NCBI RefSeq assembly: GCF_018129685.1 | Contig: NZ_JAFCLG010000001.1 | Coordinates: 1,516,870 to 1,580,869 of the forward strand | Source of the DNA: Bradyrhizobium manausense | GTDB taxonomy: Bacteria > Pseudomonadota > Alphaproteobacteria > Rhizobiales > Xanthobacteraceae | Direction of reading: 5' to 3' | Length of the DNA stretch: 64,000 nt | Part shown: piece after piece, positions 3 through 13,841 of the stretch | How positions within the stretch are numbered: position 1 is the stretch's first letter | Layout: each line of letters begins with the position of its first letter | Position numbers and translations under genes: made by a program | Notes under the pieces: generated by a model | Told to the model about the DNA's origin: nothing | The model's database searches: none | Seen by the model: only the letters and a program-made list of their open reading frames with translations

Positions 3-2261
3 ACCGTGTCCTGGTGCGGCCCGGATGGACAGATGCCGATCCTCAACAGTTCGCCCGTTCCGATCGATCCGGCGGCCAATTTTCCCTCACGTGCGATCGT
101 CGCGAAGAAAACCCTGCACCTGCCGGATTGGTCGGCAATCGAATTGCCGGAGTTCGAGCGCGCAATCCAGGACAGATTGGGAATCCGGTCCGCGCTCTAC
201 CTGCCGTTGCTGCGCCAGGGCGAATGCATCGGCCTGCTGGCAATGGCGGGAACGCGCGCCAACGCTTTCGCCGCCAAAGACATCCTGCTGGCCGAATCAT
301 TCCGCGACCAGGCCCTGATCGCAATCGAGAACGCCCGCCTGTTCGACGAGGTGCAGGCCAAGACGCGCGATCTCACCGAAGCGCTGGCCTACCAGACCGG
401 GAGCGGCAATGTTCTCAAAGTGATTGCTTCGTCGCCCACCGATATCAATCCGGTGCTCGAGGCGATCGTCGAAAGCGCTCGCGAGCTCTGCGAGTCAGAC
501 GATGCGGTCGCTCTCTTGAAAGAGGGTGAGAGCCTTCGCTTCAGCGCACACGCCGGCCCGATCGCCTTAAGGGTCGGCAAACGGCCGATCAGCCGCAACT
601 GGACGGCGGGTCGCGCGTTCGTCGACCAGACGCCCGTGCATGTCCACGACATGCTCTCCGACGAGGGCGCCGAGTTTCCGGATGCGAGGGAAATGGGGCA
701 AGCCACCGGCGCGTCGGTTCGGACCGTTCTGTCGGTGCCGCTGCTGCGCGGCAACGAGAGTATCGGCGCGATCCTGCTGCGCCGGACAGAGGTACGTCCG
801 TTCAAGGACAAGCAGATCGAGTTGCTGTCGACGTTTGCCGACCAGGCCGTGATCGCGATCCAGAATGCCAGACTATTCAACGAGACCCGGGAGGCGCTGG
901 AGCGGCAGACCGCGACGTCGGACATTCTGAACGTGATTGCGAGTTCGCCGACAGACACACGGCCGGTGTTCGAGGCGATCGCGGCCAGGGCCAAAGACCT
1001 CGTCGGCGGATTCTCCAGCACGGTGTTTCGCTTCATCGATGGACAGGCGCATCTCGAAGCGTTCACGCCGACGACGCCCGAGGCGGATGACGTCTTGACA
1101 TCGACCTTCCCCATGCCGGCCGCGGACTTTGCGCCCTTCCTCATGGCTCAGTCCGGCGAGGTTACGCAAATTGCCGACATCGAGGCCATGACGGACCAGA
1201 TCAAGGACATCGCGCGCGCGAGGGGCTTTCGCAGCATGCTGTTCGCCCCGCTGATGAACAAGGGCGTGTCGATCGGCCTGATCGTGGTGACGCGGGTCGA
1301 ACCCGGCCGGTTCGCAGATAATCACGTGCAGTTGCTAAGGACATTCGCCGACCAGGCAGTGATCGCGATCGAGAACGTGCGGCTGTTCGACGAGGTGCAG
1401 GCGCGCACGCAGGAGCTTTCGAAGTCGCTCGAAGACCTCCGGACGGCACAGGACCGCCTGGTGCAGACCGAGAAGCTGGCCTCACTCGGCCAGCTTACCG
1501 CCGGCATCGCGCACGAGATCAAGAACCCGCTCAATTTCGTCAACAATTTCTCGGCTCTGTCGACCGAACTGACCGACGAGCTGAGGGAGGTGCTGGCCGG
1601 CGAGAGCCTGACCGAGCCCGGCCGCGAGCAAGTCGACGAGCTGACGGGACTTCTCAAGGACAACCTCGGCAAGGTCGTGCAGCACGGCAAGCGGGCCGAT
1701 TCCATCGTCAAGAACATGCTGCTGCATTCGCGCGAAGGCTCCGGCGAGCGTCGTTCGCAGGATCTCAACGCCCTGGTCAGCGAGAGCCTGAACCTTGCCT
1801 ATCACGGCGCGCGCGCCGAACGATCCGACTTCAACATCACGCTGGAGCAGGATCTCGATCCCGACGCCGGCGCGGTGGAGATGTATCCGCAGGACATCAC
1901 CCGGGCCCTGCTCAACCTGTTTTCCAACGGCTTCTACGCGGCGATCAGCCGCAAGAAGGCGGCCAACGGTGCGACCTTCGAGCCCGTGCTCAGCGCGGCA
2001 ACCAGAAATGCCGGCAATACCGTCGAAATTCGAATCCGTGACAACGGAACGGGCATTCCCGCCGAGATCAGGGAAAAGATCTTCAATCCCTTCTTCACGA
2101 CCAAGCCGACCGGCGAAGGGACCGGCCTTGGCCTGTCGATGACCCACGACATCATCGTCAAGCAGCATGGCGGCAGGATCGACATTCGGACCGAGGCCGG
2201 CGCGTTCACCGAGTTCACGATCACTCTGCCGCGCGCGAACGGGGGCGCGAAACACACATGA
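3..2261 (+). CDS. GAF-domain sensor histidine kinase (5' end cut by window edge)
   Basis: The frame is open to the left edge, so the N-terminus is missing; residues are numbered from the GTG at base 6. Three GAF domains lie at about 25-115, 140-290 and 310-465, each followed by a similar linker (ARLFDEVQ, ARLFNETRE, VRLFDEVQ), which suggests domain duplication. A short coiled coil leads to the dimerisation box AHEIKNPLNF with the phospho-accepting His503. The ATP-binding domain shows the N box NLFSNGFYAA, DNGTGI and GEGTGLGLS. No membrane segment is visible, so a cytoplasmic sensor is likely. There is no receiver domain or adjacent response regulator. Its stop codon overlaps the next start (ATGA), so the two are probably co-translated. 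The ligand is unknown. Confidence 0.93.
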   Translation, partial: TVSWCGPDGQMPILNSSPVPIDPAANFPSRAIVAKKTLHLPDWSAIELPEFERAIQDRLGIRSALYLPLLRQGECIGLLAMAGTRANAFAAKDILLAESFRDQALIAIENARLFDEVQAKTRDLTEALAYQTGSGNVLKVIASSPTDINPVLEAIVESARELCESDDAVALLKEGESLRFSAHAGPIALRVGKRPISRNWTAGRAFVDQTPVHVHDMLSDEGAEFPDAREMGQATGASVRTVLSVPLLRGNESIGAILLRRTEVRPFKDKQIELLSTFADQAVIAIQNARLFNETREALERQTATSDILNVIASSPTDTRPVFEAIAARAKDLVGGFSSTVFRFIDGQAHLEAFTPTTPEADDVLTSTFPMPAADFAPFLMAQSGEVTQIADIEAMTDQIKDIARARGFRSMLFAPLMNKGVSIGLIVVTRVEPGRFADNHVQLLRTFADQAVIAIENVRLFDEVQARTQELSKSLEDLRTAQDRLVQTEKLASLGQLTAGIAHEIKNPLNFVNNFSALSTELTDELREVLAGESLTEPGREQVDELTGLLKDNLGKVVQHGKRADSIVKNMLLHSREGSGERRSQDLNALVSESLNLAYHGARAERSDFNITLEQDLDPDAGAVEMYPQDITRALLNLFSNGFYAAISRKKAANGATFEPVLSAATRNAGNTVEIRIRDNGTGIPAEIREKIFNPFFTTKPTGEGTGLGLSMTHDIIVKQHGGRIDIRTEAGAFTEFTITLPRANGGAKHT

Positions 2262-3238
2262 GGCGCCGGGATCTTTTGGCCATGGCCGCAGGTGGCATCG
2301 CCTGGCCGTTCATGGCGTGCGCGCAGCAACCCGTTCCGGTGATCGGCTATCTCGGCAGCGCGTCAGCAGACGCCTGGGCGAGCCGGCTGGAGGCATTCCG
2401 TGCGGGATTGCACGAGGCAGGCTTCGACGAAGGCCGCAATATCGCAATCGAATTTCGCTGGGCGAACGGTAAACTCGACAAATTGCCCGAACTCGTGGAT
2501 GACCTCGTGCGCCGCAAGGTCTCGGTGCTGGTGACGCCGGGCAGCGCACCGGCTGCCGTTGCAGCCAAACGAGCCACGACAACGATCCCGATCGTGTTCG
2601 AGACCGGCGCCGATCCGATCGAGGCCGGTCTGGTCACGAGCATGAACCACCCCGGTGGCAACGTCACCGGCGTTGCGGCCCTCACCTTCGAGACCGGTCC
2701 CAAGCGACTTGCAATCCTGCATGAGGCGCTTCCGTCAGCCAAGCTCATTGCTGTGCTGGTGAACCAGCGGGCGGGCGTTGTGGTGGGACGCCAGGTCAAG
2801 GACCTCGAGGCGACGGCGCCGCAGCTTGGACTGCAATTGCTGGTGCTGGATGCGAGCGATGATCGCACGCTGACGAGCGCCTTCGAGACCATGCAGCAGA
2901 AGCGGGCCGGCGGGCTCCTCATCGTCGCCGATCCTTTCGCCAACAGCCGCATCAAGGAGATCGCAGACCTTGCGCTCGATCACGCCATGCCGTCGATCTT
3001 CGTGAACCCTCAGTATGCTGCGCTCGGCGGCCTGATGAGCTATGGCGGAAACATTGTCGAGACGCATCGCCTTGCGGGGCTTTACGTTGCACGAATTCTC
3101 AAGGGCGAGAAGCCAGGCGATCTGCCCGTCATGCAGGGCACCAAGGTCGAGTTGAACGTCAACCTGAAGACGGCCAAGGCCCTCGGCCTCGCCTTGCCGC
3201 TGTCGCTGCTGGGCCGCGCCGACGAGGTGATCGAATAG
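2258..3238 (+). CDS. ABC transporter substrate-binding protein (ABC_sub_bind family)
   Basis: A 326-residue exported binding protein of the PF04392 type. The N-terminus MRRRDLLAMAAGGIAWPF resembles a Tat-like or short Sec signal followed by ACAQQ. The mature part begins with the family hallmark PVPVIGYLGS, then LEAFRAGLHEAGFDEGRN and, later, PIVFETGADPIEAGLV. These are the two lobes of a periplasmic-binding fold. No permease or ATPase gene follows. In this group such proteins often sit beside GAF histidine kinases, so a sensing role together with the upstream kinase is possible. That is an inference from the four-base overlap of the two genes. The substrate cannot be read from sequence. Confidence 0.92.
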   Translation: MRRRDLLAMAAGGIAWPFMACAQQPVPVIGYLGSASADAWASRLEAFRAGLHEAGFDEGRNIAIEFRWANGKLDKLPELVDDLVRRKVSVLVTPGSAPAAVAAKRATTTIPIVFETGADPIEAGLVTSMNHPGGNVTGVAALTFETGPKRLAILHEALPSAKLIAVLVNQRAGVVVGRQVKDLEATAPQLGLQLLVLDASDDRTLTSAFETMQQKRAGGLLIVADPFANSRIKEIADLALDHAMPSIFVNPQYAALGGLMSYGGNIVETHRLAGLYVARILKGEKPGDLPVMQGTKVELNVNLKTAKALGLALPLSLLGRADEVIE

Positions 3239-13230: not shown

Positions 13231-13524
13231 CTAACCAGTGTCAGAACTGCGCTTGCGCTTCACTATCTTGACGAGGGTTTCATCAATACGGCTCTGCCAA
13301 CCCGGGCCTTCCGCCTTGAAATAGTCGACGACGTCAGGACTCAGACGTAAAGTCACTTGTTGCTTTGTCGGGGCTCTGTTGGGACCGCGGCCTTTCCGCA
13401 TGGTCGGAAAGACCTCATCGAAAGTCTTTGCCCTGACAAAGTCGTCCTTAGTCCATTCCGGATTGTCACTCACCGCACGCATGTCACGTGCAGTGTAGCG
13501 CTTCTTAGCGACGGTTTTCCTCAT
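13231..13524 (-). CDS. brnA: BrnA-type antitoxin
   Basis: A 97-residue protein starting MRKTVAKKRYTARDMRAVSDNPEWTK. Its C-terminal ribbon-helix-helix-like part is VTLRLSPDVVDYFKAEGPGWQSRIDETLVK, the BrnA pattern (PF14384). BrnA neutralises the BrnT ribonuclease toxin and represses its own operon by binding a palindrome. The gene overlaps the end of brnT by 20 bases, the usual toxin-first order. The frame continues upstream through brnT with no similarity, so the internal ATG at 13524 was chosen. Confidence 0.9.
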   Translation of the reverse strand: MRKTVAKKRYTARDMRAVSDNPEWTKDDFVRAKTFDEVFPTMRKGRGPNRAPTKQQVTLRLSPDVVDYFKAEGPGWQSRIDETLVKIVKRKRSSDTG

Positions 13525-13795
13525 AGAGCTTCCTTTCCTTCTTGCTGGCAGCGCGCATGCTGATGATGCTGACGCCCTCGGATCCCCGGGTCGCAAAGAT
13601 GACCGAGACGACGCCACGGATCGTGATGCCGATCGCGCGCCATCGGTTGCCATAGGTGGCCATAGGTGGCCATAGGTGGCCATAGGTGGCCAAAACCAAG
13701 GCATTGTCGAAGAAGGCTTCGTTGAGATCAGCGAAATCCATCCCGTGCTTGTCGAGATTGGCTCGGCGCTTTGGCTCGTCCCAAACGATTTTCAC
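13505..13795 (-). CDS. brnT: BrnT-type ribonuclease toxin carrying a tandem-repeat insertion
   Basis: A 96-residue protein from a GTG start at 13795. It has the BrnT hallmarks: MKIVWDEPKRRANLDKHGMDFADL, then the core RWRAIGITIRGVVSVIFATRG and the C-terminus SIISMRAASKKERKLYEE. BrnT is a RelE-like ribonuclease of type II toxin-antitoxin systems. Between LVLATYG and NRWRAIG the protein has an extra HLWPPMATYG, encoded by three additional copies of a 10-bp repeat. Ten residues restore the frame exactly, so the toxin is not frameshifted, but a loop before the core strand is enlarged and activity may be altered. A change in copy number by one or two would abolish the frame. Confidence 0.88.
   Translation of the reverse strand: MKIVWDEPKRRANLDKHGMDFADLNEAFFDNALVLATYGHLWPPMATYGNRWRAIGITIRGVVSVIFATRGSEGVSIISMRAASKKERKLYEENRR
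13651..13690. repeat. Four perfect 10-bp tandem repeats inside brnT
   Basis: CATAGGTGGC is repeated four times without error at 13651-13660, 13661-13670, 13671-13680 and 13681-13690. The bases on each side (CATCGGTTGC before, CAAAACC after) are partial matches. The array lies within brnT. Three extra units equal 30 bp, that is ten codons. Confidence 0.97.
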
Positions 13796-13800
13796 AATAT

Positions 13801-13820
13801 TATTTTGTAACTACAAAATA
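13801..13820. promoter_or_regulatory. Palindromic operator candidate upstream of brnT
   Basis: TATTTTGTA, a two-base centre, then TACAAAATA: a perfect 9-bp inverted repeat beginning six bases upstream of the brnT GTG. Its position and AT-rich composition in a GC-rich genome suit the binding site of the BrnA repressor, known to autoregulate these operons. The assignment to BrnA is inferred. Confidence 0.7.
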
Positions 13821-13841
13821 ACCTGAAGTCAATTGTGATTG

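Follow-up and report, generated by a model that had tools for sequence, protein, structure and literature searches.

The brnTA operon of the soil bacterium Bradyrhizobium manausense, a type II toxin-antitoxin module, carries a tandem array of a 10-bp unit inside its toxin gene, brnT, by which the encoded protein is enlarged by ten residues without loss of the reading frame. The operon lies in a 64,000-nucleotide stretch of contig NZ_JAFCLG010000001.1 (positions 1,516,870 to 1,580,869; hereafter the window, from whose first letter coordinates are counted). The expansion of brnT is real, rare and apparently private to this genome; most likely it was made by slippage and is tolerated as a loop.

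A perfect 10-bp array inside brnT

The unit CATAGGTGGC occurs in four error-free copies at 13651-13690, exactly where an earlier note on this DNA had located them, and the perfect period-10 tract, partial units included, measures 44 bp (4.4 copies; Table 1). When mismatches are allowed, Tandem Repeats Finder (TRF) extends the array to 54 bp with 95% matches and, at a score of 94, ranks it at the top of the 12 arrays in the window. The genome is a 7.48-Mb draft in 58 contigs, and 864 kb of it (800 kb of contig 1 plus the window) contain three perfect arrays of comparable kind, the brnT array included (periods of 4-30, at least 24 bp and at least 2.9 copies). Third-order Markov simulations (three of 800 kb each) yielded no such array in any run. 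The brnT array far exceeds chance expectation.

In the protein, the insert reads HLWPPMATYG and directly follows LVLATYG. The earlier note had taken LVLATYG-NRWRAIG to be the usual join, into which ten residues were inserted in frame, and the orthologues without the insert agree; several natural orthologues have LVLATYGNRWRAIG at the insertion point. An assembly or sequencing artefact, to which a draft of 58 contigs could give rise, is highly improbable, as the frame is preserved, ordinary reads are longer than the 54-bp tract, and some 50 kb separate the array from the closer end of its 1.58-Mb contig.

Fifteen other genomes of the genus (L119-L133; one genome per species was compared) exhibit brnTA at the same place between collinear flanks, and none of these 15 orthologues carries the array or the extra 30 bp. 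The array is thus present at one of 16 collinear loci, the window counted, and is not the fixed loop shared by relatives that the earlier note had considered. The starts of brnT and brnA are 241 bp apart at 12 of the collinear loci, 240 bp apart at the other three and 271 bp apart in the window; compared with the 12 orthologues that have undergone no length change themselves, brnT of the window is longer by 30 bp. Among 265 genomes of the genus, the array pattern with one mismatch allowed matched within brnT in the window only, while two other genomes matched elsewhere. Near matches to a two-unit pattern in genomes G132 and G078 were rejected as lying outside brnT (G132 has no brnTA DNA match, and that of G078 covers 34 bases only). 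The three-unit pattern found no match in viral contigs. GGCCACCTATGGCCTCCTATGG was observed in two other genomes (L113 and L115) within similar-looking sequence outside brnT, possibly as part of a small shared element.

At the protein level, the window's own sequence has 96 aa, whereas the other 119 of the 120 homologues among the matches listed (703 further) do not exceed 89 aa; the nearest protein among these (P0002, 86 aa) reads ATYGNRW without an insert. The cluster of the window protein is described as representing four member sequences. Judged from these comparisons, no other genome seems to share the insert.

Slippage and the enlarged turn

The brnT product scores 63.2 bits for the BrnT family (PF04365; cut-off 34.5), and its predicted structure shows the BrnT/RelE-type fold, in which residues 39-47 form the sole stretch with a predicted local distance difference test (pLDDT) value below 50. 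This model was built on an alignment of 81 sequences and replaced one from a shallower alignment of 18 sequences, which gave a poor pLDDT of 49.6. The insert sits in a turn between the predicted strands 33-36 and 51-58, whose length is naturally variable across the family. The closest known systems include the Salmonella toxin 7vd7, the brnTA module and the BrnT of Brucella abortus (PDB 3u97); compared with the latter, the window protein carries ten additional array-encoded residues in the turn that precedes the invariant arginine R51. In PMC13284704, K16, H17 and R72 (BrnT numbering) are named as residues contributing to toxicity. All three are kept in the window protein, as K16, H17 and R81, and their equivalents are present in 76, 80 and 81 of the 81 aligned sequences, respectively. 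Because the new residues are distant in sequence from these positions, the enlarged protein would probably still be a ribonuclease neutralised by BrnA.

The tract was found in a single genome, the gene is otherwise constrained, and the turn tolerates changes in length; slippage expansion would therefore explain the array. We consider it probable, from sequence comparison and structural modelling, that the four copies arose by recent replication slippage and are borne as a loop that is predicted to be disordered and to leave the BrnT fold intact. The corresponding site of the nearest orthologue, TTTTGGCCACCTATGGCAACCG, comprises a single unit and, ten bases further along, a second TGGC, and an ancestral site of this kind could have mispaired with itself and thereby seeded slippage. 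Each unit holds the palindrome TGGCCA, and two neighbouring units can fold as a 6-bp stem with a 4-nt loop, which could stabilise a slipped strand. In the calculated fold of the coding strand (-14.8 kcal/mol, z -3.35), the array forms two hairpins of exactly these dimensions. An expansion by three units would have kept the frame, and only multiples of three would have done so; since a random gain keeps the frame one time in three, the kept frame is weak evidence of selection. The array stays prone to slippage, and BrnT function would likely be lost with any further gain or loss of units other than in threes. Even then, brnA should still be readable, as part of an in-frame fusion or through a new start at its own ATG.

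Several observations weigh against a tolerated slippage product. The folds of the + strand of the array (z -1.66) and of its RNA (z -1.51) are unremarkable. The dN/dS ratio (nonsynonymous to synonymous substitutions) of the rest of brnT, 0.09-0.20, from which its constraint is read, spans the entire divergence from the relatives rather than the period that followed the insertion. The loop of the window protein is the longest among the 81 aligned sequences and for this reason could interfere with folding, with the entry of RNA or with the binding of BrnA. Furthermore, brnT is broken in four of the 15 collinear orthologues, in three by a frameshift into brnA (L125, L130 and L133; 172-177 aa) and in one by a stop at codon 16 (L128), while it is intact in 11 and brnA is open in all 15. 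As brnT is often lost in relatives in which brnA stays open, the insert might be an early step of brnT decay.

Among 13 further loci, brnT is intact in eight, frameshifted in four and stopped at codon 2 in one (broken in L137, L142, L143, L144 and L146; the early stop is in L142), and two of the four frameshifts run into brnA (L143, L144). In L142, L143 and L145, the brnA start was assigned to a non-start codon, the frame being open regardless; the brnA status of L139 is unsettled, and L147 is unplaced in the locus comparison. That the insertion has already damaged the toxin, so that brnT is degenerating into a pseudogene like those of several relatives, is consistent with these losses and with the exceptional loop length. 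We nevertheless regard it as unlikely, since the frame is kept without a stop, dN/dS is low and the fold is predicted to be intact outside the short low-confidence stretch.

Copy number and reading registers

A change of one or two units shifts the brnT frame, as the earlier note had pointed out, and the consequences can be read from the three registers downstream of the array. The register in use at present terminates at 13505-13507, the stop codon of brnT, so that no single open frame connects the BrnT start with the BrnA stop. The second register is free of stops up to 13231-13233, the stop codon of brnA, and the third ends at a TGA (13521-13523) that overlaps the brnA ATG. By arithmetic, the loss of one unit would generate a single frame of 184 residues from the BrnT start to the BrnA end, and the gain of one unit a frame of 94 residues ending on the brnA start codon. 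The suggestion that a frameshift might uncouple brnA is not borne out, because both alternative registers end on brnA itself.

This arrangement invites the reading that frequent changes in copy number switch BrnT on and off while brnA is kept in every state. Like simple-sequence contingency loci, brnT has a perfect coding repeat whose unit is not a multiple of three; its units can form hairpins, one alternative register is open to the brnA stop and the other to the brnA start, and five of all seven frameshifted brnT genes in relatives run into brnA (L125, L130, L133, L143 and L144). This lean towards the brnA register is not significant alone (one-sided binomial, 0.23). In contrast to contingency loci, the tract is missing from every collinear relative, and highly mutable tracts are usually longer than 4.4 copies of a 10-mer.

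In their openness, the two registers also resemble what synonymous shuffling and other window genes show. For 12 brnT genes (11 intact orthologues plus that of the window), the brnA register contains one to three stops per gene, the TGA at the start codon included, versus shuffle means of 1.1-2.6, which is no depletion. The third register contains one to four stops versus means of 4.4-7.1, fewer in all 12 genes, and the same deficit is found in 27 of the 29 long open reading frames of the window (245 stops versus 399.6 expected). For this reason, no selection on the third register is claimed: selection for open alternative registers was rejected, the deficit being mostly a general effect of neighbouring codons, and the openness of the two other brnT registers is not special. 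The earlier note had described the array as the architecture of a phase-variable or slippage-tuned toxin; no positive evidence for this was obtained, and we judge phase variation to be distinctly unlikely.

A more elaborate version, which we hold to be quite improbable, is a fail-safe switch with three states, in which copy number modulo 3 would set separate BrnT and BrnA, a fusion of truncated BrnT to BrnA, or truncated BrnT. The fusion state would end the toxin and keep the antitoxin domain, and in the truncated state the BrnT stop would overlap the brnA start codon. Slippage would thus always disarm the toxin and never the antitoxin, so that a clone could shed and regain the addiction module without dying.

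The brnTA operon and related systems

As is typical of BrnTA modules, brnA directly follows brnT, with an overlap of 20 bp, and its ATG overlaps the TGA of the third brnT register (Table 1). The palindrome directly upstream of brnT also precedes its 15 collinear orthologues, in some of them in slightly altered form, and the motif TTGACT is located upstream of it. The palindrome is likely a putative BrnA operator and promoter region, and the short gap between it and the GTG start suggests a brnT message that may be leaderless or nearly so and repressed by BrnA.

Table 1. Location of the array and of the surrounding features of the brnTA operon in window coordinates.
Feature	Position	Strand	Description
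brnA	13231..13524	-	97-aa BrnA-family antitoxin; PF14384 80 bits, cut-off 26.1
brnT	13505..13795	-	96-aa BrnT-family ribonuclease toxin of type II toxin-antitoxin pair; GTG start
Degenerate flanking repeat unit	13639..13648	-	Follows the array in the reading direction of brnT; part of TRF array 13639-13692
Perfect period-10 array	13649..13692	-	4.4 copies; coding-strand unit TGGCCACCTA
22-bp palindrome	13800..13821	.	TTATTTTGTAACTACAAAATAA; perfect 10-bp arms; directly upstream of brnT

Elsewhere in the genome, a second BrnT (PF04365, 83.5 bits) is encoded on contig 27 (L001, 1459-1761) beside a gene at 1827-3161 with MmeI methyltransferase and target-recognition domains. It seems to lack a BrnA partner, because the BrnA profile matched contig 1 only. 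A second BrnA-family match (L189, contig 1, 336438-336614) lies far from both BrnT matches and is possibly an orphan antitoxin.

Phase variation by tandem-repeat slippage reportedly occurs at the ica locus of S. aureus. Judged on titles and the openings of abstracts, no example of a slippage-switched type II toxin was recognised among the papers listed, and no case like this one was recognised among those listed on toxin decay beside intact antitoxins and on Bradyrhizobium toxin-antitoxin genes. BrnT-BrnA fusions are in print, and Table 2 of PMC11980606 gives 28 prokaryotic and four eukaryotic ones. The register that would follow the loss of one unit in the window resembles them in joining the BrnT start to BrnA, and five relatives indeed hold a continuous brnT-brnA frame. 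Unlike in these fusions, the genes of the window are separate, and the join in the five relatives follows a frameshift by which the C-terminal part of BrnT is lost.

The window thus provides a natural case of a toxin gene that was enlarged by repeat expansion with its frame kept, alongside relatives whose copies of it have been disrupted by frameshifts, several of them running into the antitoxin gene. The five relatives suggest that frameshifted toxins may account for some of the BrnT-BrnA fusions in annotations, and the overlap of a toxin gene with the antitoxin gene behind it may make the loss of the toxin safe. If the copy number proved to be variable, brnT would represent a type II toxin switched by slippage.
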